Shown: in pieces, positions 7,783 through 26,087 of the stretch
Layout: every line of letters begins with the position of its first letter
Position numbering within the stretch: the stretch's first letter is position 1
DNA from: Chloroflexota bacterium
Lineage (GTDB): Bacteria; Chloroflexota; UBA6077; FW602-bin22; JAMCYS01
Assembly (NCBI GenBank): GCA_023473795.1
Contig: JAMCYS010000090.1
Location: 1 to 64,000, forward strand
DNA: 64,000 nucleotides
Reading direction: 5' to 3'
Made by a program: the position numbers and the translations under genes
The notes under the pieces: model-generated
What the model saw: the letters and a program-made list of their open reading frames with translations, nothing else
What the model was told of the DNA's origin: nothing
The model's database searches: none

Positions 7783-7856
7783 CGTGGCCCTTCTAGCGCA
7801 GTCTGGCGGACCGCCCTTTCTCAGCACACGGAGCGTATCCGCCGCAAGCAAACCAG

Positions 7857-7886
7857 ATTGTACTGCAACGCCAGCAGACACCGCAA
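7857..7886 (-). promoter_or_regulatory. Promoter for the UPF0104 gene
   Basis: Minus-strand TTGCGG (7881-7886) and TACAAT (7857-7862) with an 18-base spacer, about 75 bases before the TTG start. The same pair of hexamers with the same spacer occurs ahead of the M20 hydrolase gene. Confidence 0.55.
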
Positions 7887-7928
7887 TGGCTGAGCAGCCG
7901 CTGAGTCTACGCCAGCGGGCCAAGGTTA

Positions 7929-7957
7929 TTGACAGCCGGCCAGTTGCTCGGTAGGAT
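7929..7957 (+). promoter_or_regulatory. Promoter for the broken PMT gene
   Basis: TTGACA (7929-7934) and TAGGAT (7952-7957) with a 17-base spacer. Transcription starting near 7964 rules out any start codon upstream of that point, including the TTG inside the -35 box. Confidence 0.6.
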
Positions 7958-8580
7958 TGGGAACGTGGCACAGATGCCCGGTCTCTTGCCCGAGCAGCAA
8001 ACGCGGAGCGAGCAACCCACCGCCAGTCCCACTGACGGCCGCGCTGCCCGTCCGCGCCCGTCGGCGGGCGCAGGGGCTCTCCTTCCCGGCGGGCTCGAGG
8101 CGCACGCCATGCGGCTGCTGGCGCTCGTCGGGGCGCTGGTGGCGGCGAGCAAGTTCGCGCTCGCCGGCAACGCCTGGCTGGGCCTTCTAGTCTATGCCCT
8201 TTCCGCCGCGGTTTTCTGGTATTCGGTGGCGCCCTGGGACCCTCCCACGGTTGCCTTCCCTGCCGCACCGCGAGTTCGCCTGCGCCGACTTGACTTTGCT
8301 TTGGCCTCGCTTGTCGCCGGCATAGCTTTTCTCTCCGCCACCCGGGGAGCGCCGCAGCTGCTGCTGGCAGGATTGTGGGTAGCGGCGATGCTTCTGGCCC
8401 TGGCTGCCGGCAGCCGGCAAGTCGAGAGCGGCCGCTCCGCGGTGACGGCAGCGCGCTTCCCGCGGCGCGAGCTGGCGCTGGTCTTGGCCATCGGCCTCCT
8501 TGCCCTGGCCCTACGTTCCTGGCGGCTCGACCTCTACCCCAACGGTTTCCATGGCGATGAGGGCATCTTCGGCAGGGAAG

Positions 8581-9490
8581 CCTGGGCCATCCTGCAAGGC
8601 AAGGGGGCGCCGCTGTTCGGCGTCGGAGAATGGAACCATCCGGGGGGCTATTTCCACCTCTACGCCGTCTGGCTGGCCATCCTGGGCTACGGGGAGGTGC
8701 CGCTGCGGGCCAGCGACGCCTGCAACGGCGCTGTTCTGGTCGTGTTGGTCTACTTCCTGGGACGAGCCCTGTTCGGCAAGCGGGTCGCTCTGCTCGCGGC
8801 CGTTCTGGTCTGCTGCAACGTCGGCTTCCTCGTCTTCAGCCGCCAGGCGCTAGGCCTGTCAGTGTTGCCGGTTCTCTGGACTGGGGCCTTCCTCGCCCTC
8901 TGGGCCGGTCTGCAGAGAGGATCAGGCAAGCTACTGGTCTTGGCCGGCATACTAGGCGGGCTAGGGATGTATACGACCTTCGCGGCGCTCAGCTGGCTGG
9001 CGACAGTCGCCATCTTCGCCGCGGCCGTGGCCCTACTGACCCGCCAGATCAGGGCCTACGTACGGCCGGCGCTACTGTTTGGGCTGGGCTTCGCCGCCGC
9101 CTTCGCCCCCCTGGCGCCAGCCTATCCGCTGGTTTGGGCGCACTCCTCAAGTCGCCTGCTGTCGTCAGACCCGCGACAAATGCTGGCCATCGCCGGCACA
9201 ACGGACTTGATTCCCGTCTATTGGGCGAACCTCATCAGGAACCTGCAGGGCCTCTTCGTGGCCAATCGCGAGGGCTTCTTCCTCCCGGGTTTGCCGCTTC
9301 TCGGCCCCGGCGAAGGCGCTCTCTTCGTGCTGGGGGGACTGTACGCATTAGTGCGACTGCGCGACCTGCGCTTCCTGCTTCTGCTCTGCTGGCTGGTGGT
9401 GATGTTTATCTGCAACGCGGAGATCAACAGCATAAGCCCGCAGGCGCATCGCCTCTGGTTTGGCACCGCGCCCATGCTGCTGCTGGCGGC
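8581..9490 (+). repeat. 910-bp perfect tandem duplication, copy 1
   Basis: Identical by eye to 9491-10400. It begins with CCTGGGCCAT and ends before the second CCTGGGCCAT. The flanking base differs (G at 8580, C at 9490), so the boundary shows only one base of shared sequence. It lies wholly within the PMT gene. Confidence 0.95.
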
Positions 9491-10400
9491 CCTGGGCCAT
9501 CCTGCAAGGCAAGGGGGCGCCGCTGTTCGGCGTCGGAGAATGGAACCATCCGGGGGGCTATTTCCACCTCTACGCCGTCTGGCTGGCCATCCTGGGCTAC
9601 GGGGAGGTGCCGCTGCGGGCCAGCGACGCCTGCAACGGCGCTGTTCTGGTCGTGTTGGTCTACTTCCTGGGACGAGCCCTGTTCGGCAAGCGGGTCGCTC
9701 TGCTCGCGGCCGTTCTGGTCTGCTGCAACGTCGGCTTCCTCGTCTTCAGCCGCCAGGCGCTAGGCCTGTCAGTGTTGCCGGTTCTCTGGACTGGGGCCTT
9801 CCTCGCCCTCTGGGCCGGTCTGCAGAGAGGATCAGGCAAGCTACTGGTCTTGGCCGGCATACTAGGCGGGCTAGGGATGTATACGACCTTCGCGGCGCTC
9901 AGCTGGCTGGCGACAGTCGCCATCTTCGCCGCGGCCGTGGCCCTACTGACCCGCCAGATCAGGGCCTACGTACGGCCGGCGCTACTGTTTGGGCTGGGCT
10001 TCGCCGCCGCCTTCGCCCCCCTGGCGCCAGCCTATCCGCTGGTTTGGGCGCACTCCTCAAGTCGCCTGCTGTCGTCAGACCCGCGACAAATGCTGGCCAT
10101 CGCCGGCACAACGGACTTGATTCCCGTCTATTGGGCGAACCTCATCAGGAACCTGCAGGGCCTCTTCGTGGCCAATCGCGAGGGCTTCTTCCTCCCGGGT
10201 TTGCCGCTTCTCGGCCCCGGCGAAGGCGCTCTCTTCGTGCTGGGGGGACTGTACGCATTAGTGCGACTGCGCGACCTGCGCTTCCTGCTTCTGCTCTGCT
10301 GGCTGGTGGTGATGTTTATCTGCAACGCGGAGATCAACAGCATAAGCCCGCAGGCGCATCGCCTCTGGTTTGGCACCGCGCCCATGCTGCTGCTGGCGGC
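9491..10400 (+). repeat. 910-bp perfect tandem duplication, copy 2
   Basis: Direct repeat of 8581-9490 with no differences that I can find. After position 10401 the sequence departs from copy 1's continuation (CG here, CC at 9491-9492). A length of 910 is not a multiple of three, which is what breaks the gene. Confidence 0.95.
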
Positions 10401-10959
10401 CGTCGCTATCGACCGGACGCTGCTGTTGGGGCAACCGGAGCTCGGAGACAGGGCGCGCAGGCTGGCACGGCGTTACGGCGGTGTGGCTCTAGCCACGGTG
10501 CTGGTGGGCGTGATCTGCGTCGGCGGGCTGCGGGCCTTCTTCACTCACGGAGAGAAGTTGATCATGTGGGAGACGGCCAGCTCGCAGGCGCGCTACATCG
10601 CCCAACTCGGGCCAAAGGTATCGATCGGTCTGCTGGGTGCGCCGAATATCTACTTCGATCACCCATCGCGGCAGTACTTGGCACCCCAGGCGATAGGCAT
10701 GAATATCACCCGCTGGCCGGACGACCTCGACGCCCTGCGAGCATTAGGCCGGCCTGCCGTCTTCATCGTCTACCCTCACCGCAACGCGGACCTCGAGCGT
10801 CTACGGGCAGCCTTCCCCGAAGGGCAGGAGAGGGCAATCGTGCTGCCGGTGCCCGAACCGCACACGGTGTTCACCGCCTTCGCCACGGAAGGCTTGCCGC
10901 CGCCGCTCCAACCACTGCCCCCCGACCCGCTCGGCCAGGCGCTCTTCCGCTGAAAGCGC

Positions 10960-13900
10960 CTACTTGGGCGTGGGATATACCACGACTCGATTGTTGCCAG
11001 AGTCGGCGACGTAAAGGTTCCCCTGCCCGTCCACGGCCAATCCTAGAGGCAGATAGAGAGGCATTTGGCCCTGGTTGGCACCCCAGACCGCCAGCAGCTC
11101 CCCGGTATTGGCGAACTTGAGCAGGCGCTGGCCCTCTGGGTCGCTGGCATACACGTTGCCGACGGCATCCACAGCTAGATAGGGTTTGTTGGCCACTCCC
11201 TCAGAGCTCCAGGAAGGCACGTCCCACTGGGCAAGGTAGTTGTAGTCCGGGCCGAATTTCTGGATCCGCTGGTTCCAGGTATCGGCGAGGTAGATGCTAC
11301 CCTGAGCATCCAGGGCGATGCCCACGGGCTCGTTAAGCTGGCCGTCGCCCGCGCCAAAGGTGCCGAACTGGCTGATGAAGGCCCCGTCGGGCGAGAACTT
11401 CTGCACCCGCTTGTTGCCGGTATCGACGACGAGCACGTTGCCCTCGCGGTCGACCGCCAGGCCGCGCGGACCGTAGAACAGGCCCGGGGAACTGCCCGGC
11501 TGGCCGCGAGCGTCGGCGAAGCTGCCCCATTGCAGCAGAAAGCGGCCGCTGGCGTCGAACTTCTGCACGCGGTAATTCCAGGTGTCAGACACATAGACGT
11601 TTCCCTGGCCATCCACCGCGATGCCCCACGGCTCGTCGAACTGTCCGGGCTCCTTTCCTCGACTGCCCCACTGCGCCAACACCTGGCCGTCGGCGGCGAG
11701 ACGCACCACCCGGTCGTTGCCGGAGTCCAGAACGTAGAGTCCTCCGTCGGGAGCCGGAGCGACGCCCTTGGGGTCGTTCAGCGTCCCTGCCCCGGGGAGG
11801 GCGGCGATTGTGCGGGAGGGCGCGATGTCCGTCGTCTTGTTGGCATACGGGTCCTGGCCGACGCCGGCCGCGGTCGCCGCCTGCGCCGGCATCCAGGCGC
11901 CGCCGACCAGGTCCTTACGCACGTAGAGGACGAAATCGGTAGATCCGAGTGGATCAAGCGGCTCGCGATAGAGGAAGTAGCGCCAGAGGCGCGTACGCGC
12001 GTCGCTCCGCAGACTGGCACGCAGAATATCCAGGAAACCGAAGCCCGAGGAATCGGCAGGCAGGGTGGCGCGCTGCGCCTCGGGCGTTATGGCCCGCAGC
12101 CACTCCGCCACGGTGCGGTAGTCCTCGGGGAACCACCAGCGCAGCCGATAGCGCTGGCTAACGTAGTTGCCCGCCAGCAGCGGCCGCACCTGGGCGTCGT
12201 GGTTGTTCTCCAAGCCGACGATCACTACGGCGGCGTCTGTCGGGGGGGAGCCTGTGCCGATGAAGACCCGGCCCGGCCAGTCGCGCAGGTACCATTCGAA
12301 CGGCCAGGAGACGTCGCTGTCGTAGGCGACTTTCAGGTTCTTGCCCTGGCCGGTGCGCACGGCGACACGCTCGATATCCTGCATTACGTTGACGACGTCC
12401 GGGGTCGTCTGGGTGTAGACGATCATCTCCGTGGCGATGTCGCCGTTGACGAAGGCAGCCTGGACGCCCGTATGCACCGTCAGGGGCACCAACACCACCA
12501 GCGAACCCACGGCCAGCGTGCCCAGCGAGCGTCGCAGGCCCAGACGCTCGGCGACGCGCAGGACCAGGTAGGCGAGGGCAGCCAGAAGCCCTACCATCAG
12601 CAGCCAGCGCAGCCAGAGATTCTGGCTCTGCAGGTCGCTGAGCCCCGCGGCGGTCGGCCGAGGCATGTTGGAGAGCGCTAGCCCGACCACGAGCAGCACC
12701 ACAGCCGCCCCCACCAATAGGGCTCGCGCTCGAGCTAGGTCGCGCCAGCGCTGGCTTTGCAGCACCGCCGCCAGGGCCATCGCCGCCAGTAGAGCGAGCG
12801 GTAGGCCAAGCTGCAGTATCAGCCAGGGCATCTTCTCACCCGCCCAACTGAAGAGCACCAGGGCGCCCGCGAACCAGAATACGAGGAAGGACGTGAACGG
12901 CCGGCGTTTGACCAGGAAGTAGGCTATGCCCGGCAAGGCGAAGGCCAACAACAAGTACTCGTAGAGCGGCAGGAGCAGGAGGTAGTAGTACCAGGGCTGG
13001 CCGCCCCGGCGCACCTCCTGCTGGGCCAGCCAGTAGACCAGACCGCCGACCGCCCCTGTGATGAAGCCGGCCGGATTGCTGAACATTGTCGTGAAGAAGA
13101 TAGTGAAGACGGCGAAAAAGACGCCTGCCGCCGTGAGCCACACTCGCGCCCGCCAGCGGGTGCCGATAAGCGCCGCCACTGCCAGAAGCAGCACGAAGAC
13201 GACGGCCAGGAAGCGGTACTCCTCTGGCGTCGGGTAGGCGTCAATAGGCCTGCCCTGCAACCGGCGATAGATGATCGCGAAGCCGCCCAACTGGGTCAAC
13301 GTTAGCGTTCCCAGGAGCAGCAGCACGTCGGCCGGTCCACCGAAATGCCTCTCGCGCTTGAACAGGGCCAGCAACTCGGGCCCCGTCCAGACGAAGAAGA
13401 ACAAACCCCACACCGCCATCACGAGGTAGGTGGTCTCTTTCGTATTGAAGGAAAGGGCCAACAGCCCGGAGAGAATGTAGAGATAGACGGGCCGGCGTTC
13501 GTCGAGATAGCGCCAGATACAGACGAACATGGCCAGCGTGAAGAAGGCTACGTGCGCATCCTCGCGGATGAAGCGCCCGAAATAGAGGAAGGACGGCGAA
13601 ATCAGCAGCAGTCCGCAGGCGAGTAGGGCCGCCAGTCGACCCATCTGCCGCCGAAGCAAGTACGGCAAACCGACCGTAAGCGTGCCCAGGAAAGCCGGGG
13701 CGTAGCGCGCCGAGGCATCGCTGGCCCCAAAGAGGAAATAGATCAGGGCGTTGAAATGGTAGATGAACGTGCCGTGCAATAGGGGATCGTGCACGTAGCC
13801 GCGGCCGGTATAGAGGTAATAGGAGTAGACCGCATGCAGGCTTTCGTCGTGATGCAGCGCCCGCGCCCCCAGGTCCCAGAAGCGGCTGATCGCGGCCAAG

Positions 13901-14019
13901 ACCATAATGCTCACGAACAGCGCCTTCTCCCAATCGAGCGACAGCGCGTTCAGAAGCGAGAGATCCAGCAGCGAACGCTGCCGGGCTTCACCCTCGTATG
14001 CCAGTTCCCCGCTTTGCAT
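10960..14019 (-). CDS. Agl23-type GT39 membrane protein with C-terminal NHL propeller
   Basis: About 1019 residues. The N-terminal two thirds is a multi-pass protein of the Agl23 family (flippase-activity-associated, TIGR03663-like), with the first-loop acidic pair in ALHHDESLHAVYSYY (Asp58, Glu59) and GRGYVHDPLLHGTF. After a soluble domain, residues from about 735 to the end hold six NHL repeats with recurring LxVDxxGNVYVxDTxNxRVQKF units, enough for one six-bladed propeller, presumably outside the cell. I start at ATG 14019, ten bases after the upstream stop; an upstream frame of 47 residues is open but looks non-coding. Last gene of a four-gene operon. Confidence 0.88.
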   Translation of the reverse strand: MQSGELAYEGEARQRSLLDLSLLNALSLDWEKALFVSIMVLAAISRFWDLGARALHHDESLHAVYSYYLYTGRGYVHDPLLHGTFIYHFNALIYFLFGASDASARYAPAFLGTLTVGLPYLLRRQMGRLAALLACGLLLISPSFLYFGRFIREDAHVAFFTLAMFVCIWRYLDERRPVYLYILSGLLALSFNTKETTYLVMAVWGLFFFVWTGPELLALFKRERHFGGPADVLLLLGTLTLTQLGGFAIIYRRLQGRPIDAYPTPEEYRFLAVVFVLLLAVAALIGTRWRARVWLTAAGVFFAVFTIFFTTMFSNPAGFITGAVGGLVYWLAQQEVRRGGQPWYYYLLLLPLYEYLLLAFALPGIAYFLVKRRPFTSFLVFWFAGALVLFSWAGEKMPWLILQLGLPLALLAAMALAAVLQSQRWRDLARARALLVGAAVVLLVVGLALSNMPRPTAAGLSDLQSQNLWLRWLLMVGLLAALAYLVLRVAERLGLRRSLGTLAVGSLVVLVPLTVHTGVQAAFVNGDIATEMIVYTQTTPDVVNVMQDIERVAVRTGQGKNLKVAYDSDVSWPFEWYLRDWPGRVFIGTGSPPTDAAVVIVGLENNHDAQVRPLLAGNYVSQRYRLRWWFPEDYRTVAEWLRAITPEAQRATLPADSSGFGFLDILRASLRSDARTRLWRYFLYREPLDPLGSTDFVLYVRKDLVGGAWMPAQAATAAGVGQDPYANKTTDIAPSRTIAALPGAGTLNDPKGVAPAPDGGLYVLDSGNDRVVRLAADGQVLAQWGSRGKEPGQFDEPWGIAVDGQGNVYVSDTWNYRVQKFDASGRFLLQWGSFADARGQPGSSPGLFYGPRGLAVDREGNVLVVDTGNKRVQKFSPDGAFISQFGTFGAGDGQLNEPVGIALDAQGSIYLADTWNQRIQKFGPDYNYLAQWDVPSWSSEGVANKPYLAVDAVGNVYASDPEGQRLLKFANTGELLAVWGANQGQMPLYLPLGLAVDGQGNLYVADSGNNRVVVYPTPK

Positions 14020-14029
14020 CCCCACTACC

Positions 14030-15805
14030 CTATCTGTTGGCGTTGCCCACGGCCACGTAGAGGCGCACCTCCTGCCGTGGCGCCACGACAGTGAATTCAC
14101 GGTACAGCAGCCAGCGCCACAGCTGGCCTGGGCCAGAGGCGGCAAACGCAGCCGCACCACCCAGCGTGTACTTCTGCCAGACGTAGTTGCCGGGCGGCGG
14201 TTCCACCTCCGCCGGCACCACTACCAGCGTCGAGCCCACGGTCGGCCCATCGTAGGTCACGCGTGTGTAGTCGCGCAAGTACCAGGCAAGGGGGTACTTG
14301 AGAGTGGCATCCACGGCCAGGCTCAGATCCCGGCTGCCAGGAGTGCTCAGCACCGCGGACTCGCGCTCGATTTCCTGATATAGGCTGCGCAGGTCAGCGC
14401 CGGTTGTCTGATGCGCCGGCAGGAAGCCCGGCCCCAACGGGTCCGTTTCGGCAACCGCGGCGCTGACGTGCAAGGCAAAGCCAAGCACAACCACCGCCGC
14501 CAGCAAAGCCGCGCCCCAGGCAGCAGGCGAAGGGCCGCGCCAGAAGGCCCAAAGCGCGGCCACGACCCACAACAGCGCCGGGGGCACCAGAACTACGCTG
14601 GGAGGCACCGTCGAGTTGGGAAGGGCCACGTAGCCGGCGGTAATGCCAAACAGCCACACCGCGGGCAGAGTCGAGCACAGAAAGAGAGCCGCCTCAGCAG
14701 GTGCCAGCCGACGCCTGCCCTGCCGCCAGAGCTCGGCCACGGCTGTCCCGCCTGCCAGTGCCCAAGGCAACACGATGTAGGACAGGCCGCTCGCTCCCGG
14801 GCCGGCGGCGAAGCCCGCGGCGAGCACGGCCACCGTGCCCCAGACCAAGGCGAAGCGCGCGCCCGCACCCAACCAGGGCAGCAGCACCAGCGCGGCCACG
14901 GCGCCCAGAACCACCGCCGGCTCGTACACGGCCAGCGTTGCCACGACGGCAGGCCAAACCCTCACCCCGCCGGCGAACGAACCCAGCCAGAGAGCCAGAG
15001 GGTCAATCACCCCCGTCTGCACCCCTTGCGGCTGGCTCAGCAGGCCCGTAGCCACGAGCAGCAGCCCCAGCGCACCCGGCAACGCCCACGGTCGCCAGCG
15101 GCCGAGCAGCTGACTAGAATCGGCGGGCAAACGCCCAGCCAGCGCCTGCGTGAGGCCGAAGGCGAGGCCCAGAGGGACAACCAGGGCAAAGGAAGAGGGA
15201 CCGCAGGCGAGAGTCAAGCCCGCCAGCAAGCCAGCCAAAGCGAAGGCAAGCCGGCCGCCGCCTTCCCGGGCCTGCGCGTAGGCCAACGCCGCTCCGCCGA
15301 GCAGCGCCAGGGCCGGCAGCTCGCCATCCAACTGGCGCGAGGCGCCCACAAGCGAGGGCGAGATCGCTAGAAGCAGCGTAGCGCCCAGAGCGGCCTCACG
15401 ACCGAACCAGCGCCGCCCCAGGTAGGGATAGAAGACCACCGCCAAGCCCGCCAGAGAGGGCAACAGGCGAGCGGTGAAGTCGGACGCGGAGAAAAGGAAG
15501 AAGAGGGCGGCGGTTCCGTACATGAGGACAGGGCCGGCGGCGAGCGAGGAGACATCGCCGCGAGTCAGTTGCAGCGCCGCCAGGGCCCGGCGACCTTCGT
15601 CGGCGCTGAGCAACGGCGTGCCCAGGTCCCACAGGCGCAGGCCCGCCGCCAGGAGCCAGAGCAGCAGATACGCACCTACCTCGAGTGTCAGCCTGTCGGC
15701 AGCAAGACGGGGCATTGCGTCCGCACCGGTCCCGGTATGTATTACCGTCGAGGCGGCGACGTCCGCGTCCTCGACCCCTACTGCTCGCGCTTCCTGCATC
15801 GTCAA
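14030..15805 (-). CDS. GT39/PMT-family membrane glycosyltransferase
   Basis: A 591-residue multi-pass protein with a short charged N-terminal tail, a first-loop acidic pair in TPLLSADEGRRALAA, about 12 hydrophobic helices, and a C-terminal soluble part resembling the matching region of the neighbouring Agl23 protein (an IERESAV...YPLAWYLRDY stretch). It probably belongs to the same GT39 lineage as its neighbour but lacks the propeller. The ATG overlaps the stop of the YYY gene by four bases, so the two are translationally coupled. The sugar and acceptor are unknown. Confidence 0.82.
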   Translation of the reverse strand: MTMQEARAVGVEDADVAASTVIHTGTGADAMPRLAADRLTLEVGAYLLLWLLAAGLRLWDLGTPLLSADEGRRALAALQLTRGDVSSLAAGPVLMYGTAALFFLFSASDFTARLLPSLAGLAVVFYPYLGRRWFGREAALGATLLLAISPSLVGASRQLDGELPALALLGGAALAYAQAREGGGRLAFALAGLLAGLTLACGPSSFALVVPLGLAFGLTQALAGRLPADSSQLLGRWRPWALPGALGLLLVATGLLSQPQGVQTGVIDPLALWLGSFAGGVRVWPAVVATLAVYEPAVVLGAVAALVLLPWLGAGARFALVWGTVAVLAAGFAAGPGASGLSYIVLPWALAGGTAVAELWRQGRRRLAPAEAALFLCSTLPAVWLFGITAGYVALPNSTVPPSVVLVPPALLWVVAALWAFWRGPSPAAWGAALLAAVVVLGFALHVSAAVAETDPLGPGFLPAHQTTGADLRSLYQEIERESAVLSTPGSRDLSLAVDATLKYPLAWYLRDYTRVTYDGPTVGSTLVVVPAEVEPPPGNYVWQKYTLGGAAAFAASGPGQLWRWLLYREFTVVAPRQEVRLYVAVGNANR

Positions 15806-18159
15806 CGTGGACCGGTCTGCGCCAGCACGGGTGCCTGGCGCAGACGGTAGATCGTTACTCCTTGGTTGCGAAAGGCCACGTCCATGAAGGACCCGAACTT
15901 GGCCAGCGCCCCGGGCGAGGTGCCGCCATAGGCCTGGCGTTCGCTGTCACCGACGTAAACGTAGGTTACGCCGTACTGCCGCAGCAGACGCTCCGCTAGC
16001 GCCAGGTCCTGGGTGCGGTAGATGGCGTCCACGTCCGCTTTGCGCACCGCGGGCACGGTTGTACTGCCGCGCCACTGGTACTCGTGCCCGACCCAGCCCA
16101 GCACCGAGGGCAAGCCGGTGAAGGCCGAGCCCTGGTTGCCGACGCCGTACTCGGCACCGCTGGCTTCCAGAATAACCGGCGTCCCCTCCACGCCTTGCAG
16201 CCAGGCAATGGCGGACCCTTCGTATGGGTTGGCCCCGTTCAGCCAGGCCAGTCCGTCTAACGTGGCAGGGCCGGCAAAGCCGGCGGTCTTGGAGAGCGGC
16301 GCCAACAGGGTGTAGACCATTCCGCCGGCCAAGGCGATGGCGGCCAGCGCCAGCCAGCCCCGATAGGCGATCAGCCTGACGCCACGCCAGGCGAGGACCC
16401 GACGCAGTGAACCGAGGCAGTATACCGTGTAGGCTCCGGCAACGGCAAGGAGGGCCCACGACTGGTAATAGAGCTTGAAAACGGTGTTCATGCGATTGCC
16501 AAAGCCATCACGCACGTAGATGACCTCGCAGGCAGCCAGGAGCAGCCCGGCCAACAGCACGAGGGCAAGGGCGAAGACATCCTCGGACCGCCCGGGGGAG
16601 TCCGAGGGGCCACCCCCCGGCAGGCGCCTCAGTAATGCCAGTCCGGCGAGACCGGCCAGAGCCAGCAAGACCGCTAGTGAAGTCAGACCGGCCAGGCCAA
16701 GCGCCAGCAGCGCGACCGCAGCCGCCAGCCAGGCCCACCAGTTCCTCCTTGCCCGGTCGAACCAATCGCCCGCCGCCAGCGGCAAGGCGAAAGCCAGCGC
16801 GAGAAGGGGTCCCCAGAAGATGGCCAGGTGCTGCCACTGGGTCCTCACGGTGACTAGGCCAATACCACCGACCTGGCTGTGCAGCCAGGCGAAGAACGGC
16901 CAGTAGGTGAGAAAACAGACAACGAGCGCCCCCGCGCCGAAGGCGGCAGCCCTCCCCAGGAAGTCAAGGAGCGGGCGTCCAGAGACCAAGGCACGCTGCA
17001 GGGCGTAGCAGAGCGCCAGCAACCCCAGGAACACAGGCAAGTCCCAGGTGTTGAGGAAACCCAGGGCGCCAAAGCAAAGCACGTAGAGTACGGCGCGGCC
17101 CTTCTCCGCCCCCAGCGCCGCGGCCGTCAGCTCGCGCGGCCAGCGCAGCACGGCCAGACAGAGACTCAGGGCGAAGACGACGAACGGCAAGGCCATCACG
17201 TGGGGGTGGAGGTCTCCCAGGAGAAAACTGAAGAATGGGAACTCGTTGATCGTGTAGTCACCGGAGACGCCCGTGGCCGGGTCGAAGGTCCCGACCACTC
17301 GGGTCGCCCGCCACCACCACCACGTGTCGGGTGGGTCGCTGGGATACCACTGTGGCCCGACCGGCGCGGTCGCCAAGTCGCGGATATTGAGCCAGCGGAC
17401 GAACTCGCTCGAGAGCCTGCCCGTCTGGCGCAGGACTTCGAACACGGCCTCCCAGTTGGCGAGAAAGAGAAGGAGCAGAGGGCCCAGCAGGGCGAAGGCG
17501 GCGGCGCCACCGTCGAAAGGTGTCGGCTCGCCCTCCACCGTAGACGCGGCTCGGCCGGCGACGAGGGAGTAGAGGAGCCCAAAGGAACCGGCGGCCGTGG
17601 CGCCGAAGAGGAAGGCCAGCGCCAGATTGAACCCTACCGCGGGCGCCACGCCCGCGAGCTTCACCAGCACGGCCATCAGATAGTAGCCGAAATAGTAATA
17701 GCTAATCCCGTAGCCGGCCAGCCACGGGTCCTGCGGCGGGGCGCTCTCCGCCCGCAACGCCGCGTTGAGGAAGGCGAAATCCATCGGCTTCTCCGTGCCG
17801 GAGATCGCCGGATTGTAGGCACGGAAGGCGGCGAGAAGTGCGAAGCCCGCCAGAAACACCAGCTCAGGGTACAACCAATGGCGAGGGTTGGCCCGCAGCC
17901 AGGCCCAGGCCTGTCGGCCCCAGCGCCCCCAGGAAGCAGCGGCCAAGACGGCCATGAGGACAAACAGGGTGGCCCGGCGGTTGGCCAGCAGACCAAAGGA
18001 ACTGCCAAGCCAGATGGCGTAGCCAACCAGCAGCAAGCCAAGCGGCTTGGCGAAGGCCAGTCCACGGCCGGGCAGCGCGGGCAGCAACCACCAGACCAGG
18101 GGCAGCGCCGCCAGGCCCAGAGCCTCAACCGCCAGCAGCCATAGCACTACGTCAGACAT
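15802..18159 (-). CDS. Chlor_Arch_YYY (DUF2298) membrane protein
   Basis: A 785-residue multi-pass membrane protein of the YYY family (TIGR03662 / DUF2298), found in Chloroflexota and methanogens and named for a conserved Tyr run. The signature is visible: GTEKPMDFAFLNA followed by PPQDPWLAGYGISYYYFGYY. A later NEFPFFSFLLGDLHPH segment and GNRMNTVFKLYYQ near the end are also shared with the neighbouring paralogue. The C-terminal soluble part ends with IYRTQDLALAERLLRQYGVTYVYVG, again shared with the paralogue. Function is unknown; context suggests membrane glycan assembly. Confidence 0.88.
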   Translation of the reverse strand: MSDVVLWLLAVEALGLAALPLVWWLLPALPGRGLAFAKPLGLLLVGYAIWLGSSFGLLANRRATLFVLMAVLAAASWGRWGRQAWAWLRANPRHWLYPELVFLAGFALLAAFRAYNPAISGTEKPMDFAFLNAALRAESAPPQDPWLAGYGISYYYFGYYLMAVLVKLAGVAPAVGFNLALAFLFGATAAGSFGLLYSLVAGRAASTVEGEPTPFDGGAAAFALLGPLLLLFLANWEAVFEVLRQTGRLSSEFVRWLNIRDLATAPVGPQWYPSDPPDTWWWWRATRVVGTFDPATGVSGDYTINEFPFFSFLLGDLHPHVMALPFVVFALSLCLAVLRWPRELTAAALGAEKGRAVLYVLCFGALGFLNTWDLPVFLGLLALCYALQRALVSGRPLLDFLGRAAAFGAGALVVCFLTYWPFFAWLHSQVGGIGLVTVRTQWQHLAIFWGPLLALAFALPLAAGDWFDRARRNWWAWLAAAVALLALGLAGLTSLAVLLALAGLAGLALLRRLPGGGPSDSPGRSEDVFALALVLLAGLLLAACEVIYVRDGFGNRMNTVFKLYYQSWALLAVAGAYTVYCLGSLRRVLAWRGVRLIAYRGWLALAAIALAGGMVYTLLAPLSKTAGFAGPATLDGLAWLNGANPYEGSAIAWLQGVEGTPVILEASGAEYGVGNQGSAFTGLPSVLGWVGHEYQWRGSTTVPAVRKADVDAIYRTQDLALAERLLRQYGVTYVYVGDSERQAYGGTSPGALAKFGSFMDVAFRNQGVTIYRLRQAPVLAQTGPR

Positions 18160-18165
18160 CAGCGA

Positions 18166-21100
18166 TCAGGCAGCTCCCCGCACGTGGTAAATCTTGACGC
18201 CCCGCGCATCGTAAACCAAGTCTAGCGTACTGCCTACCAGGGCGTCGAACTTCGCCAGCCCGGCCGCCGGATAGTAGGCCCGCTCCAGCTCGCCCACGTA
18301 GACGTAGCTGACGCCGTACTCGTGAATGACGGCCAGCGCTGTCGTGGGGTTTGTCGAACTGTAGGCATCGTTGACCTCGTTGACCCGGCGCTCGACTTCC
18401 TGCTGGTAGCCCCAACGTTGCTGGCGCTCGTGCCAATCCCAACCCAGCACCGCGGGCAGGCCGGTGTAAATGGCGACGCGCGCGCCCCAACGATAGTACG
18501 GAGCCCAGCCCTCCAGCACCACCGGCGAGCCACGTACGTTCTGCCACAGCCACTGGATCGCCGCGTAGTCATTGCCCAACACGAGGCGCCGGCCTTCGTC
18601 GTTGTATACTGCCGAGTTCAGGTAGGCCGCACCGTCCAGAGTGTGCGGGGCCGCCTGGGCGAAGCGATCGAGCAGCCGGGAACGGGTGGCGACAACTGGG
18701 TAGGCAAGTCCCGCCACGAGAACGAGCGCCAAACCCACCTGCCAGATCTGCGACCACCAGGCGCGCGATTTGGCTGCCAGGCTACAGAGAGCAACGAGCA
18801 CCACCGATCCGGCCACGCCCCAGACAATCCACATCTGCAGATAGAACTTGAAAACGGTGTTCATGCGGCCAACGTCGCCCTTGATGGCAAAGAGCTCGCA
18901 GAAGGCGCTCAGGCCGAAGCCCAACGCAATCATGCCCAGGAGAAACGTCTCCGCGGCCGAGCGGCGCGGCTGCAGCGCCAGCCAGGCGGAGACCGACAGC
19001 AGTACCAGAAGAACCCCCAGCGTCGTGTAGCCCAGGAGATGCAGCAGTAGCCCGCCGGCCACTACGCCGCCCAGTCCGTACAGGGCCAGCAACGCCGGCT
19101 CGTCGTCACGACGCACTAGCGCCCCATAGTGGCGACGGAACGCGTCCGCGCGCGGCCAGTGGCGCGCGCTCGCCGCCGCGCCTCGCCACCAACCGGCCCG
19201 CGAGTGGCGAGCCCACAGTTCGTAGGCAAGGAAGCTGACCAGACCGAAAATGAAGAGCCCGTTGATCACCAGGTACAAGTGCAGGGGCGAGCGCTCTGGC
19301 GCCGGGTCGACGCCGTTGTAGAACGACTGGAAGTTGGCGTGGAAGGGCAGGTAGAGCGCCCAGGCAGTGAGCGATAGCATGACGAGGTCGACAAGCAGGC
19401 GCAGCAGTCGGGCCAGGCTGCGCGCGCCTCTAAACCAGACCACGAAGAGCGCGAAGCCTGCCAGCGCCAGATAGGTGGGGAAATCCCAGGAGTTCGTCGG
19501 CCACAGCGCCCCCAGCACCAGGGCGAGAACAAACCAGCGCAGCAGCGCCTGCAGCCAAACGCGAGCCCGCACCCCCTCGACCGGCAGTAGCCCCTCGCCG
19601 CTCAGAGCCAGGCTCAGGCAGGCCGCCAGGCTGAGGAGCGTGTAGGGCATGGCAATCATGTGGGCGTGCAAATCGGCGAAGAGGAAGGTGAAGAAGGGGA
19701 ACTCGTTCACTGAGGCACCCGGATAGACTCGCGTCGTGGCCCAATACCAATCGGTCGACGAAGCCAGTGGCTGGCCCCGCAGCCAGGATGAGGCCAGTCC
19801 CGTCAGGGCGGCAAGCAGACCGTCGACGCCGGGTATGGCGCTGTGCAGGCCGTGGTAGCCATTGGCACCCAGGGCATCGAGTAGCTGGCCGGCTCCCCCG
19901 AGATTGCCCGCGAAGCAGACGATACCGACCGCGAGCAGCCCCGAGGCGAGGCGGCGTCGTTCCCGGCCGGGCAGCAGCTGGACCGCGAGGCTGTACGAGA
20001 CCGAGAAGACACCCGCCGCGGTGGCCGCGGCGAGAAACGGCACGGCCAAGTTGTAGGCGATTGTCGGCTCAATGGCCGTGAGCTTGATTAGCGTGGCGAC
20101 CAGCAGCTGGCCGAAGTAATAGTAGTTGAGGAAACCGCCGGCAAACCAGGGGTCATAGGGCGGGTAGGCCTCGCTCTTCAGCACGGCCATCAAGTAGGCA
20201 AAGTCCATCGGCTTTTCGCCCCCTCGGGCAGGATGCCAGAGGTCGGGGTTCAGCCAGCGCAGCGCCAGGAAGATCAGAAACACCCCCCAGAACACGGCCT
20301 CCCCCGTCAAGAGAGCCGCCCGGCGCTCGCGCCAAAGCGAGCGCAAAGCGGCACGCTGCCACCAGGCGACGCCCGCGGCAGCTGCCGTGAGAGCCGCGAG
20401 CAGCAGACGCAGCACGCCTGGCGTGGCCGGCAGCAGGCCCGCGCTCGTCACCTGCCACTGCAACCAGGTAAGCAACAGTAGAGCCAGCGGGCGGGCGAAA
20501 TGATAGCCCCGATCCGGCAACCATCCCAGAGCGGCAACGGCGAAGGGCAAGCCGACCAGCCCGAGCCCGAGAAGTGCCAGCACCCAGGCCACGAGCGGCA
20601 GGCGGTTCTGCCAGCCGTCGGCAGGGAAGAGCTCGGCGTAGGTACCCCCCAGCGCCTCCACCGCCGCCTGCACCGGGTCCATCAGCCGAACCGACGTGCT
20701 GGTGGGAGCAACGCCGCTCACGGGTCCCAGTAAGGAGCGCAGCTGGCTCTCGGAAAGCTGAGCCTCTTTGCGAAAGACCAGCACCTTGGGGTGGTCGTAG
20801 ACCGTGAAGCTCTCGTCGGCAGCGTCGTCCACTATCTGCCAACCATCCAGAGCCGGATAGTTGCTGAAGACCTTGTCCAACGCGAAACCCAGCTGGCCGC
20901 CGAACAGTAGCTGGTAGTAACGGGTGGTCACCGGGTAGCGGGCGGGGAGGCGCGGGATCGAAGCATAGAGTCGATTGCTGGAGAGGATCACGAAGTCGGC
21001 CCGCCGCAGGTCCGCGATCAGCTCCGCCACCTTGCTCTCGGTGTCGTCGTCGTAAAGGGGCATCTCGACGAGGGTGTACTCATCGAGGCTGCGCTGCCGG

Positions 21101-22515
21101 CCGTCGATTTGCATCGGCAAGGGCAGGGGGTCGTCCCAGTGCTCGGAAGTAATGACCGAGCCGGCGGTCACGTTCTCGTACAACCACTGCGAGGCGGCAA
21201 GGCGGGGGTGTTCCCCTGAGTAGACATTTATGAACGCCGCGCCGTAGAGCACGGCCCCCAAAAGAGCGGCTCCCCCAAGACCAACCGCCCCATACGGCGA
21301 AAGGAGGCGGGCACGCCATAGGTTAGTGCCGTCCGCCTGCCGCGCCGCCAGCCAGCGGTAGAGGTCGACCACGAGCACGGCCCCGGCCAACGAGAGGGCC
21401 GGCATAATCGGCAGCAGATAGCGCATGAACTTGGCGTAGAACGAGCCGGTGACCAGGAAGTACGGCACCACCCAGGCCAGAAGAAGCAGGTCGGTGGCTC
21501 GGGGTCGAACGAACTGGCGTACGGCTAGGTAGGTGATGCCAGCCAACGCCGTTAGGCCGAGCGCGGGCCCGTAGCCCCAGAGAACCAAGTTGCGGAGGAA
21601 GTAGAGGTAAGGCGTCGTGCCCGCGTATTGGCGCGTATATGGCAAGTCGGCCAGGCCCCGCACCATGGCGTTCTGTTCGCTGATGCTGCGGACGTAGGTG
21701 GCGAAGTCCAGGACAGCGTAGGGCTGGAGCACGACGCCCACGACCACGGCCGCGAGGCAGCAGAGGGCAACCAAGCCGATGGAGCGATTGACCTGCCGGC
21801 TCGCTGGCCGGCGCCAGCCCTGTTCGCCGGGGCGAGGCCAGTAGATGTACAGGCCGGCGGCGACGACCGGCAGCAGGAGCGCCGGCAGGGCGCTAAACTT
21901 GAACGCGAAAGCCAAGCCGATGGCGGCGCCGAGGCCCACCGCATCCCGGAGACGACCGCGGCGGCGCAGCTGTTCCGCGAACACTAGAGCCAAGACGAGC
22001 GCAAACGTCAGAAGGGTGTCGGCGGCGTAGAAGTGCGAGAGCTGGATATGGAAGGCGGTGAAAGTGACGAAGGCAGCCGCCAGCAAGCCGGCCGCGCGCC
22101 CGTACAAGCGAGAGCCCAGCAAGTACAGCAAACCGATGGTGCCCAAATCAAAGAGCGCCGAGATAACTCGCCCAATCGGGCTGAGGTATTCGTAGCTGCC
22201 CAGCCGAGGGTCGAAGAGAGCGGCAACCCAACTGGCGAGGCGCAGCAGGTAGATGGTGAACGAGCCGTAGGCAAAAAAATGCGGGTTGAGCGTGCTCGTC
22301 TTAGCATCCAGCAGGTTGGCCCAGTTCGGTGGGAGAGGTAGACTGAGCGGGGCAGCGAACATAGCGATTGCCCGCTCGTCCGGATGTAGTTGCCGGAAGA
22401 GGTCCCAGTTTATGTTGTAGAGGCGCAGCGCCGCTCCGCCGAGCAGCAAGCCCACCAGTAGCGCCGCCGCGCCCCAGGAGCTGTTCTGCCTGCCCCGGCG
22501 GTCGGCCGAGATCAT
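18166..22515 (-). CDS. GT39/PMT and YYY (DUF2298) fusion protein
   Basis: A giant 1449-residue membrane protein. Residues about 15-480 form a GT39/PMT module with the acidic pair in LFRQLHPDERAIAMF. Residues about 640-1449 form a complete YYY module: GGEKPMDFAYLMAVLKSE, PYDPWFAGGFLNYYYFGQL, NEFPFFTFLFADLHAH and GRMNTVFKFYLQMW. It is thus a paralogue of the next gene with an enzyme module attached. About 25 or more transmembrane helices are likely. First gene of the four-gene unit, six bases ahead of the next one, and transcribed from a promoter at 22554-22583. The fusion itself argues that GT39 and YYY proteins work together. Confidence 0.88.
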   Translation of the reverse strand: MISADRRGRQNSSWGAAALLVGLLLGGAALRLYNINWDLFRQLHPDERAIAMFAAPLSLPLPPNWANLLDAKTSTLNPHFFAYGSFTIYLLRLASWVAALFDPRLGSYEYLSPIGRVISALFDLGTIGLLYLLGSRLYGRAAGLLAAAFVTFTAFHIQLSHFYAADTLLTFALVLALVFAEQLRRRGRLRDAVGLGAAIGLAFAFKFSALPALLLPVVAAGLYIYWPRPGEQGWRRPASRQVNRSIGLVALCCLAAVVVGVVLQPYAVLDFATYVRSISEQNAMVRGLADLPYTRQYAGTTPYLYFLRNLVLWGYGPALGLTALAGITYLAVRQFVRPRATDLLLLAWVVPYFLVTGSFYAKFMRYLLPIMPALSLAGAVLVVDLYRWLAARQADGTNLWRARLLSPYGAVGLGGAALLGAVLYGAAFINVYSGEHPRLAASQWLYENVTAGSVITSEHWDDPLPLPMQIDGRQRSLDEYTLVEMPLYDDDTESKVAELIADLRRADFVILSSNRLYASIPRLPARYPVTTRYYQLLFGGQLGFALDKVFSNYPALDGWQIVDDAADESFTVYDHPKVLVFRKEAQLSESQLRSLLGPVSGVAPTSTSVRLMDPVQAAVEALGGTYAELFPADGWQNRLPLVAWVLALLGLGLVGLPFAVAALGWLPDRGYHFARPLALLLLTWLQWQVTSAGLLPATPGVLRLLLAALTAAAAGVAWWQRAALRSLWRERRAALLTGEAVFWGVFLIFLALRWLNPDLWHPARGGEKPMDFAYLMAVLKSEAYPPYDPWFAGGFLNYYYFGQLLVATLIKLTAIEPTIAYNLAVPFLAAATAAGVFSVSYSLAVQLLPGRERRRLASGLLAVGIVCFAGNLGGAGQLLDALGANGYHGLHSAIPGVDGLLAALTGLASSWLRGQPLASSTDWYWATTRVYPGASVNEFPFFTFLFADLHAHMIAMPYTLLSLAACLSLALSGEGLLPVEGVRARVWLQALLRWFVLALVLGALWPTNSWDFPTYLALAGFALFVVWFRGARSLARLLRLLVDLVMLSLTAWALYLPFHANFQSFYNGVDPAPERSPLHLYLVINGLFIFGLVSFLAYELWARHSRAGWWRGAAASARHWPRADAFRRHYGALVRRDDEPALLALYGLGGVVAGGLLLHLLGYTTLGVLLVLLSVSAWLALQPRRSAAETFLLGMIALGFGLSAFCELFAIKGDVGRMNTVFKFYLQMWIVWGVAGSVVLVALCSLAAKSRAWWSQIWQVGLALVLVAGLAYPVVATRSRLLDRFAQAAPHTLDGAAYLNSAVYNDEGRRLVLGNDYAAIQWLWQNVRGSPVVLEGWAPYYRWGARVAIYTGLPAVLGWDWHERQQRWGYQQEVERRVNEVNDAYSSTNPTTALAVIHEYGVSYVYVGELERAYYPAAGLAKFDALVGSTLDLVYDARGVKIYHVRGAA

Positions 22516-23400: not shown

Positions 23401-24000
23401 TTGGCGCAGTTCACCTTGGAGGCCCAGGAGATCGAGAAGTCGGACGCTAGCACGCCTCCCGTCTCGAGCCGCTGGCTGCAGTTCTTGCTGGCGGCGCTGC
23501 CTCTAGTGTTGGTCACTGCCGTGGTGGCCATATTGCGCCCGGACCTACGCGCACTCGCCGCCTATGGCTATGCTGGCGTGTTCGGCATAATGCTGGTTGG
23601 CAACGCCACCGTGCTCCTGCCGTTGCCGGGGCTGGCCACTGTTGCCGCCGCCGGCGCTCTCTGGAACCCACTGCTGGTTGGCTTGGCGGGCGGTCTGGGC
23701 GGAGCAGCGGGCGAGGTCACGGGCTACTTGGCCGGCCGGGGTGCACACCAGTTAGTGGATGTCAGCCGGGCGCAGTGGCTGAGTCGCTTTGAGGGGTGGG
23801 TACGCCGGTACGGCTTCTGGGCCATCCTGGTGTTCGCCACCGTACCTAATCCGTTCTTCGACGTGGTCGGCATCGCCGCCGGCTCGTTTGCCTACCCCCC
23901 CTGGCGCTTCTTCGCCGCCGTCTGGCTGGGCAATACGATCAAGTGCACTGCCGTAGCCCTGGCCGCTGGCACCGTCACCGGTTTCTTCTTCGGTGGCTGA
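23401..24000 (+). CDS. VTT-domain (DedA/TVP38-like) membrane protein
   Basis: A 199-residue membrane protein with the VTT (formerly SNARE-associated) fold. The family segments are visible: an acidic residue and glycine run in GAAGEVTGYLAGRGAHQL and the re-entrant loop VPNPFFDVVGIAAGSF. DedA-superfamily proteins act in phospholipid and undecaprenyl-phosphate handling, so a lipid-carrier role fits the neighbourhood but is inference. The start is unclear: TTG 23401 directly follows a TATAAT box at 23393-23398, and TTG 23416 is an alternative; neither has a good ribosome site. Confidence 0.8.
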   Translation: MAQFTLEAQEIEKSDASTPPVSSRWLQFLLAALPLVLVTAVVAILRPDLRALAAYGYAGVFGIMLVGNATVLLPLPGLATVAAAGALWNPLLVGLAGGLGGAAGEVTGYLAGRGAHQLVDVSRAQWLSRFEGWVRRYGFWAILVFATVPNPFFDVVGIAAGSFAYPPWRFFAAVWLGNTIKCTAVALAAGTVTGFFFGG

Positions 24001-24130: not shown

Positions 24131-24159
24131 TTGACAAGGCAGGGAGGCGCCGCTAACAT
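24131..24159 (+). promoter_or_regulatory. Promoter for dxs
   Basis: TTGACA (24131-24136) and TAACAT (24154-24159) with a 17-base spacer, about 40 bases ahead of the dxs start codon. Confidence 0.6.
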
Positions 24160-24197
24160 TGAGGTTACGCGCGCGAAGGAGACGCCAGCAGGCAAGC

Positions 24198-26087
24198 ATG
24201 TCTCGCTTCATCGATAGCATCAACCAGCCAGACGACCTGAAACGCCTCAACCCCCACGAACTCGAGCAACTAGCAGCGGAAATCCGCGCCGAGCTTCTCC
24301 ATACCGTCCTCCAAACCGGTGGCCACTTAGCCTCCAACCTGGGCGTAGTCGAGCTGACTTTGGCTCTGCACACTGTCTTCGCCAGCCCAGCCGACAAGAT
24401 AGTTTGGGATGTCGGCCACCAGTGCTACGTTCACAAACTACTTACCGGGCGCCGAGACCGTTTCGCCACTATTCGGCAATATGGTGGTCTCAGCGGCTTT
24501 CCCGCGCGCGAGGAGAGCGAGCACGATGCCTTCGGGGCCGGTCACGCCAGCACCTCGGTATCGGCCGCTCTAGGCATGGCCACGGCCCGCGACCTCGCGG
24601 GCGGCAAACATCACGTGGTCGCCGTGATCGGTGACGGGGCCATGTCGGGCGGTCTCGCCTTCGAAGGTGTGAACAACGCAGGCCATTTGGCCACTCGTTT
24701 CATCCTGGTACTCAACGACAACGGTATGTCGATCTCACGCAACGTCGGCGCCCTCGCCAAGCACCTGAGCCGACTGCGCACGGAGCCGCTGTACACCCAG
24801 GCCAAAGCCGGCGTAGAGTATCTTCTAGTCAAGCTGCCGTTAGGCCGGCGCGTGCTGCAGTTTCTCAAGCGTTTCAAACAGAGCTTCAAGGGTCTGGTAA
24901 TGCCCACGATGCTGTGGGAGGAGCTTGGCTTCACCTACCTGGGGCCGATTGACGGGCACGACATCTCGGCCCTCCGCGAAGCCTTCGAGCGCGCCAAACT
25001 AGTGCAGCGCCCGGTGCTGGTCCACGTCTACACCACCAAGGGCAAGGGCTACGATCCCGCCGAGGAAGACGCGGTTTCGTTCCACGGAGTGGCCCCTAAC
25101 GGCCACAAGAAGTCAACCGCGCCTAGCTACAGCACAGTCTTCGGTGACACGCTAGTAAAGGTCGCCGAGCGGGACCCGCGCCTCGTCGCTATATCCGCCG
25201 CGATGCCCGATGGCACGGGCCTCAACCGCTTCGCGCGGCAGTTTCCCCGTCGCTTCTTCGACGTGGGCATCGCCGAGGAACACGCCGTCACCTTCGCCGC
25301 TGGCCTGGCCACGCAGGGCTTCCGCCCCGTGGTGGCGCTTTACAGCACCTTCCTCCAACGGGCCTACGACCAAGTAGTGCACGACGTCTGTTTGCAGAAC
25401 CTGCCGGTCATTTTCGCCATTGACCGCGCGGGCTTGGTTGGCGACGACGGGCGCACCCATCACGGCGTCTTCGACATATCTTTCCTGCGTCACGTGCCGG
25501 GTCTGGTGCTGATGTCTCCCAAGGACGAAAACGAGCTCCAGCATATGCTCTGGACCGCGGTGCAGCTAGGTAGGCCGGTCGCGCTGCGCTACCCGCGGGG
25601 CAGTGGCGCCGGTGTGCCGCTGGACGATGAACTGATTGAACTGCCCTTGGGTCAGGCCGAGGTGCTGCGCCAGGGCGAGGACCTGGCTATTGTGGCCTAC
25701 GGCCCGCTCGTACAAACGGCGCTGGCGGCGGCGGCGACACTGGCGGAAGCCGGCGTGCAGGCGACGGTCGTCAACGCCCGCTTCGCCAAGCCCCTGGACG
25801 AACCGCTCATCGCCAGGTTGGCGCGGCGGTTGCCACTGCTGGTGACTTTGGAAGAGAACGCGCTACAGGGTGGCGTTGGCAGCGCCTTGCTCGAGGTGTT
25901 GGAGGAACACCGGCCGCTGGCAGCACGGGTGCGACGAATCGGCTTGCCCGACGTCTTCGTCGAGCACGGCAGCCCCGAAATCCTGCGCCGCAAGTGCGAC
26001 CTAGCGGTGCAGGGCGTGCTGGAGACGATCGCGCGCGAAATACCACGCCTGCAGAGAGTCCCCGCCGTGAGCGAGGTCCGGCGCTAG
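24198..26087 (+). CDS. dxs: 1-deoxy-D-xylulose-5-phosphate synthase
   Basis: Joins pyruvate and glyceraldehyde 3-phosphate with thiamine diphosphate, the first step of the MEP isoprenoid pathway. The 629-residue length is normal. Motifs include GGHLASNLGVVELTLALH near 40-57, the thiamine diphosphate site GDGAMSGG with GVNNAG, the IDGHD loop, and the transketolase-type FDVGIAEEHAVTFAAGLA. ATG 24198 matches the usual N-terminus. A polyprenyl synthase gene follows after one base, so the pair forms an isoprenoid operon feeding the lipid carriers that the many GT39 enzymes here need. Confidence 0.97.
   Translation: MSRFIDSINQPDDLKRLNPHELEQLAAEIRAELLHTVLQTGGHLASNLGVVELTLALHTVFASPADKIVWDVGHQCYVHKLLTGRRDRFATIRQYGGLSGFPAREESEHDAFGAGHASTSVSAALGMATARDLAGGKHHVVAVIGDGAMSGGLAFEGVNNAGHLATRFILVLNDNGMSISRNVGALAKHLSRLRTEPLYTQAKAGVEYLLVKLPLGRRVLQFLKRFKQSFKGLVMPTMLWEELGFTYLGPIDGHDISALREAFERAKLVQRPVLVHVYTTKGKGYDPAEEDAVSFHGVAPNGHKKSTAPSYSTVFGDTLVKVAERDPRLVAISAAMPDGTGLNRFARQFPRRFFDVGIAEEHAVTFAAGLATQGFRPVVALYSTFLQRAYDQVVHDVCLQNLPVIFAIDRAGLVGDDGRTHHGVFDISFLRHVPGLVLMSPKDENELQHMLWTAVQLGRPVALRYPRGSGAGVPLDDELIELPLGQAEVLRQGEDLAIVAYGPLVQTALAAAATLAEAGVQATVVNARFAKPLDEPLIARLARRLPLLVTLEENALQGGVGSALLEVLEEHRPLAARVRRIGLPDVFVEHGSPEILRRKCDLAVQGVLETIAREIPRLQRVPAVSEVRR

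Follow-up and report, generated by a model that had tools for sequence, protein, structure and literature searches.

A four-gene Chloroflexota operon linking Agl23-family and GT39-like proteins to YYY/DUF2298 proteins with a predicted GT-C fold

The operon and its fusion and Agl23-family genes

The window analyzed here, 64,000 nucleotides of contig JAMCYS010000090.1 from a Chloroflexota bacterium (assembly GCA_023473795.1), contains at positions 10960-22515 an operon of four co-oriented long open reading frames (ORFs) with matches to the YYY/DUF2298, GT39-like, and Agl23 families. All four genes, and all features within them, lie on the minus strand. Transcription runs from a fusion protein through a standalone YYY protein and an Agl23 paralogue to an Agl23 protein with an NHL domain, with 6 bases between the first two genes, an overlap of 4 bases between the second and third, and a 10-base gap before the fourth. 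The first-pass annotation had described four giant membrane genes in tight succession, one of them a GT39-YYY fusion, and the ORFs, gaps, and domains bear this description out. Since the same gene order is kept in other genomes, a chance arrangement is excluded. Domains were assigned with cut-offs of 26.1 bits for PMT_2, 300.25 bits for TIGR03662 (Chlor_Arch_YYY), and 126.25 bits for TIGR03663 (Agl23). Among the matches listed for the window's own genome, both TIGR03662 matches and the Agl23 match over cut-off fall inside the operon; PMT_2 is very common there, with 34 matches over cut-off.

Gene 1 (18166..22515, 1449 residues) joins a PMT_2 (GT39-like) module to a YYY/DUF2298 module and has 29 homologous fusions. 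It scores 39.9 bits with PMT_2, 382 bits with DUF2298, and 579.8 bits with TIGR03662 at residues 640-1446, and the YYY module occupies about residues 635-1449 (18169..20613). The GT39-like module retains HPDE, IQxxH, and RY motifs, of which HPDE (residues 44-47, 22375..22386), the putative catalytic acid pair of the first external loop (EL1), is kept in 28-29 of 30 fusions. The PMT_2 match and the DE motif together place the module in GT39/PMT, an assignment that does not separate GT39 from GT83. According to the TIGRFAM text, some YYY proteins reportedly carry an extra N-terminal region; its identification as GT39-like in the long YYY proteins is an addition of the present analysis. One relative of 2354 residues combines PMT_2 with two DUF2298 modules. 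A model of the fusion that covers residues 1-1200 only, computed without predicted aligned error (PAE), had a predicted local distance difference test score (pLDDT) of 82.6 and a predicted TM-score (pTM) of 0.73, a value with which packed modules are compatible. Searched against the PDB, this two-module model returned 27 matches at E<=1e-3, all of them members of the glycosyltransferase C (GT-C) superfamily (oligosaccharyltransferase (OST), ArnT, ALG12, ALG9, Pmt4, Emb, and AftA).

Gene 3 (14030..15805, 591 residues, TTG start) overlaps gene 2 by 4 bases and had been taken for an independent GT39 protein, a view that gives way to that of an Agl23-family paralogue: its PMT_2 match is weak (31.1 bits), and it scores 75 bits with TIGR03663. 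This score lies below the cut-off and a family-wide DE motif is lacking, which leaves gene 3 outside TIGR03663 itself. Among 37 homologues the EL1 Asp is kept in 6 and the Glu in 35, and gene 3 itself still reads D-E. By sequence, then, gene 3 is a member of an Agl23 branch in which the putative catalytic Asp has mostly been lost, and this loss across the family suggests a partner rather than an enzyme.

Gene 4 (10960..14019, 1019 residues, ATG start) follows after the 10-base gap and consists of an Agl23 membrane part and a C-terminal NHL domain. It scores 291 bits with TIGR03663 and carries the residues expected of that family (D58 and E59, H82 and G83 with a threonine in place of P84, R53, and R105); the motifs HHDES, HDPxxHG, and EKMPW are present in 13 homologues. 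The NHL profile PF01436 matches with 145.7 bits in 5 stretches (approximate limits 10969..11817), and the final ~285 residues are readable as six NHL-like repeats, in agreement with the six-bladed propeller proposed at first pass. The Agl23 of Haloarcula hispanica suppresses a yeast rft1-delta mutation, and it translocated Man5GlcNAc2-PP-Dol in vitro, in liposomes (PMC11182771).

Predicted fold and candidate active site of YYY

Gene 2 (15802..18159, 785 residues), which starts 6 bases after gene 1, encodes the standalone YYY protein and scores 381 bits with DUF2298 and 535 bits with TIGR03662. An AlphaFold2 model built from 103 sequences was confident throughout (pLDDT 93, pTM 0.95). Foldseek comparison of this model with the PDB gave 9 matches at E<=1e-3, all of them GT-C glycosyltransferases: DPY19 was the best (E 1.1e-7), accompanied by AglB, AftA, and the yeast and canine STT3 proteins, with PglB just beyond the threshold (E 1.4e-3); E-values for the GT66 proteins (STT3, AglB, PglB) went down to 3e-6. 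By its predicted fold, YYY/DUF2298 would thus be a member of the GT-C superfamily. PDB sequence searches with the fusion and with the 103-sequence YYY profile gave no credible match, Pfam scans of YYY proteins gave no STT3 match (PF02516/GT66), and hhalign aligned nothing between YYY and Agl23; between YYY and the GT39 module, the sole alignment was a short helical segment that directly follows the EL2 motif, too weak to count by itself.

Judged by the model helices, YYY crosses the membrane 16 times, and its final 13 spans match those of STT3 and DPY19 in number and loop order; the C-terminal domain is extracytoplasmic. The protein was oriented with its K/R-rich loops inside, and with that orientation the invariant polar residues fall on the extracytoplasmic side: E123 and D144 in EL1; R287, E306, D316, H318, and H320 in EL2; N370 and D373 in EL3; R556 in EL6; and E665, H692, R706, and E740 in the C-terminal domain. 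In the GT-C scheme, EL1 contributes an acid, EL2 an Arg and a D-x-D motif (D-x-H in AglB), EL3 an Asn, and EL6 an Arg (PMC6801728); in CeDPY19, Glu71 serves as the catalytic base (PMC10154233). YYY has both an acid in EL1, the loop that follows the first core helix, and an Arg in an extracytoplasmic loop of the C-terminal cluster. The former, E123 (17791..17793), would be the catalytic base; it is invariant in the 103 sequences and is also found in the Halarchaeum and Pseudobutyrivibrio proteins. The latter, R556 (16492..16494), likewise invariant, is a candidate ligand of the lipid phosphate and is positioned as the EL6 Arg of PglB/STT3 (PMC6801728). EL2 ends with the D316-x-H318-x-H320 motif (17200..17214), which is invariant in the 103 sequences as well. 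The YYY motifs recur in one Halarchaeum and one Pseudobutyrivibrio protein, the former reading NTWS where most read NTWD. Predicted fold and topology together support extracytoplasmic GT-C chemistry. Its site should be the outer face of the cytoplasmic membrane and not, as worded at first pass, the outer membrane face.

Coupling of YYY to Agl23 and origin of the fusion

We surveyed 201 Chloroflexota genomes and 14 control genomes; the archaeal context comprises control genomes and one plasmid. TIGR03662 was found over cut-off in 129 of the 201 genomes, and so was TIGR03663. When strong matches were called by best E-values, 127 genomes had both families, 69 had neither, and 5 had one only, an agreement in 196 of 201 (Fisher p about 1e-47, a descriptive value since the genomes are related). 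Only Haloferax volcanii and Methanosarcina acetivorans among the controls had both families over cut-off.

Gene neighborhoods were examined at 80 loci from named Chloroflexota genomes, chosen as best matches to the window's YYY and hence biased toward similar contexts. An Agl23-family gene directly follows YYY in 59 of the 72 loci with room for one, and the fusion directly precedes YYY in 29 of 61. Distances between these genes often fall in the range -1 to +25 bases; the complete order of fusion, YYY, Agl23 paralogue, and Agl23-NHL occurs in about nine loci. In the less biased genome sample, where short contigs make the counts lower bounds, a frame of fusion size is present in at least 53 of 99 listed YYY genomes, and YYY and Agl23 lie within 10 kb in at least 48 of 90 listed genomes with both. 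The coupling of YYY to Agl23 and GT39 that the first-pass annotation had claimed is therefore upheld by co-occurrence, by adjacency, and by fusion in one conserved lineage, and the pattern it had named as fatal, YYY genes mostly without GT39 or Agl23 neighbors, is not what we see.

A tree of 105 YYY modules places the 29 that come from fusions in one group (Shimodaira-Hasegawa-like approximate likelihood ratio test, SH-aLRT, 98) together with one standalone gene, which is best read as a single loss of the GT39-like part. At that locus (L051:5167-12490), the fusion-type YYY stands alone beside another GT39-like ORF, a naturally occurring case in which the fusion was lost. The window's fusion module and its standalone module are each paired with their counterpart from a single further genome (L032), the pattern expected if the two were inherited together. 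By this tree, the fusion arose once. It occurs phylum-wide and is not peculiar to this genome.

Beyond the phylum, a Pseudobutyrivibrio plasmid carries a YYY gene (L113:6459-8714) among polysaccharide genes, namely those for a GT2 protein, a glucosyltransferase-domain protein, and a member of the O-antigen ligase family, which supports a glycan role outside Chloroflexota. A haloarchaeal YYY gene spans the start of plasmid pCBA1220-01 (L112:1-1838, L114:1-606) and is missing from the listed annotation; the tree places it beside the fusion clade, on a long branch. Clear STT3 was found in only 4 of the 201 Chloroflexota genomes and not in the window's own; STT3 matches of 20-38 bits in many others were taken as generic GT-C cross-hits. 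If the genomes without clear STT3 glycosylate proteins en bloc, another enzyme is needed.

Around the operon lie genes for UppP/BacA (1679-2515), a VTT/DedA-domain protein (23401-24000), DXS (24159-26087), and a polyprenyl synthase (26089-27114), together a polyprenol-carrier neighborhood. An LPG_synthase_TM (flippase-like) gene at 6769-8268 has relatives near YYY-Agl23 pairs in 18 loci and is a candidate further component. A GT39-like gene on the plus strand (7929-10953) contains a perfect 911-bp tandem duplication (8581-9491 = 9491-10401) that shifts its frame, either an assembly artifact or a very recent duplication.

Proposed role, alternatives, and relation to known systems

Taken together, these results make it likely, in our judgment, that the operon encodes GT-C-superfamily proteins for extracytoplasmic glycosylation from polyprenyl-linked donors, with YYY as a GT-C glycosyltransferase family. 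Polyprenyl-phosphate sugars made inside the cell would reach the outer leaflet, with the Agl23 protein of gene 4 as the candidate supplier or translocator. The GT39-like and YYY sites would then transfer sugars outside to a lipid-linked or protein acceptor, and a cell-surface glycan would be built or attached there, at the outer face of the cytoplasmic membrane. In YYY, an STT3/DPY19-like layout of 13 transmembrane helices preceded by three extra N-terminal helices would hold a catalytic centre that likely consists of Glu123, Arg287, D316-x-H318-x-H320, Asn370, and Arg556, and the soluble C-terminal domain above it would bind the acceptor. The fusion chain would have two GT-C active sites that work on one sugar after another or pass substrate between them, the NHL propeller of gene 4 may be an external docking platform, and gene 3, a degenerate Agl23 paralogue, would probably be a partner subunit. 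Catalysis, donor, acceptor, a physical complex, and the roles of gene 3 and of the propeller are all what we infer from this arrangement. We give only a low probability to a bolder form of the proposal, in which YYY is a new extracytoplasmic glycosyltransferase family with a D-x-H-x-H catalytic centre, the chain fused to a GT39-like enzyme forms two glycosidic bonds in succession with Agl23 as its feeder, and this surface-glycosylation machine is common to archaea and Chloroflexota and replaces STT3-type transfer in most Chloroflexota.

Several observations weigh against the main proposal. The TM-scores of YYY to known GT-C proteins are modest (0.31-0.40 by query length) and therefore indicate superfamily membership, not close kinship. 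EL5 of YYY has ~3 residues, and the long OST-type EL5 with its metal-binding Glu is absent; Arg287 and Asp316 are 29 residues apart, compared with ~7 in PglB. The catalytic assignment of the YYY residues is drawn from their conservation, and an interface between the GT39-like and YYY modules is undemonstrated in the partial-chain model (pTM 0.73, without PAE). Chloroflexales-like genomes have YYY and Agl23 hundreds of kilobases apart, and the UppP, DXS, and polyprenyl-synthase genes, considered as a conserved part of the system, were rejected because their neighborhood is not kept in related loci.

YYY could instead be a non-enzymatic accessory of GT-C fold, a flippase, scaffold, or regulator of the Agl23 and GT39 enzymes. 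Agl23, the strict partner of YYY, has GT-C-like sequence (PMT_2) and yet acts as a lipid-linked-sugar translocator (PMC11182771), and gene 3 demonstrates that degenerate GT-C paralogues occur in the operon. We nevertheless regard this as improbable, since acidic, His, and Arg residues of its GT-C catalytic loops are invariant in bacteria and a haloarchaeon alike, whereas the gene 3 family has mostly lost its Asp. Slightly less credit goes to YYY as an oligosaccharyltransferase-type en bloc ligase for protein glycosylation, taking the place of the STT3/AglB missing from most Chloroflexota. The scarcity of clear STT3 in the phylum and its absence from the window's own genome fit such a ligase, as do the AglB, STT3, and PglB matches, the external C-terminal domain, and the EL2 D-x-H, which is that of AglB (PMC6801728). 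However, the fold matches to DPY19 and AftA are equally good, YYY is without the EL5 glutamate loop, and there is no substitution in H. volcanii and M. acetivorans, which match both STT3 and YYY. That the adjacency is incidental, and the fusion an accident without joint function in a genome so rich in GT39-like genes, we consider highly improbable: the abundance of PMT_2 matches speaks for it, but specific neighbors recur from locus to locus, the fusions form a single conserved clade in which only one loss is seen, and YYY and Agl23 agree in nearly all genomes. Neighbor, co-occurrence, and tree data thus largely refute it.

The first-pass description of an undescribed system was too strong. 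In the TIGRFAM text, TIGR03663 members are reportedly said to occur almost always with TIGR03662 members, often nearby, and its curators had probably noted the YYY-Agl23 link already; Pfam may already place DUF2298 in its GT-C clan. A biochemical study of Agl23 also exists (PMC11182771). In our literature search, no paper was found that gives DUF2298/YYY a function. The present analysis adds the YYY fold and its 13-transmembrane mapping, a candidate active site, the recognition of a degenerate Agl23 paralogue, numbers for the coupling, and the finding that the fusion arose once. DUF2298/YYY occurs in about two thirds of the sampled Chloroflexota genomes and in some archaea and Firmicutes, and its GT-C placement with a named candidate active site makes its function open to mutagenesis and donor assays. 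The placement also hints at a way in which Chloroflexota that lack STT3 may decorate their surface with sugars, and two GT-C modules in one chain would be an unusual route for channeling lipid-linked sugars.

Among known systems, YYY resembles STT3/AglB/PglB (GT66) in its 13-transmembrane core, the EL1 acid, the EL2 Arg and D-x-H/D-x-D motif, the EL3 Asn, the EL6 Arg, and the C-terminal external domain, but it differs in the three extra N-terminal helices, the D-x-H-x-H motif, the missing EL5 Glu loop, and the lack of detectable sequence similarity. The tryptophan C-mannosyltransferase DPY19, the best fold match (E 1e-7), likewise has 13 transmembrane helices and a catalytic EL1 Glu (PMC10154233); it is metal-independent and has no obvious metal ligands, whereas YYY has an Asp/His cluster, and the two are 11% identical. 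Gene 4 and the H. hispanica Agl23 both belong to TIGR03663, but gene 4 adds the NHL domain, and the function of this bacterial protein is putative. With PMT/ArnT (GT39/GT83), the GT39-like module of gene 1 shares the DE motif, and ArnT and Pmt4 are among the structural matches of the two-module model; the module differs in the second GT-C module fused to it. In GtrABC-type three-component glycosylation, a polyprenyl-phosphate sugar is translocated and then used for extracytoplasmic transfer by a GT-C enzyme. The operon would follow the same logic, but it contains no GtrA, and several GT-C proteins are fused or clustered in it.

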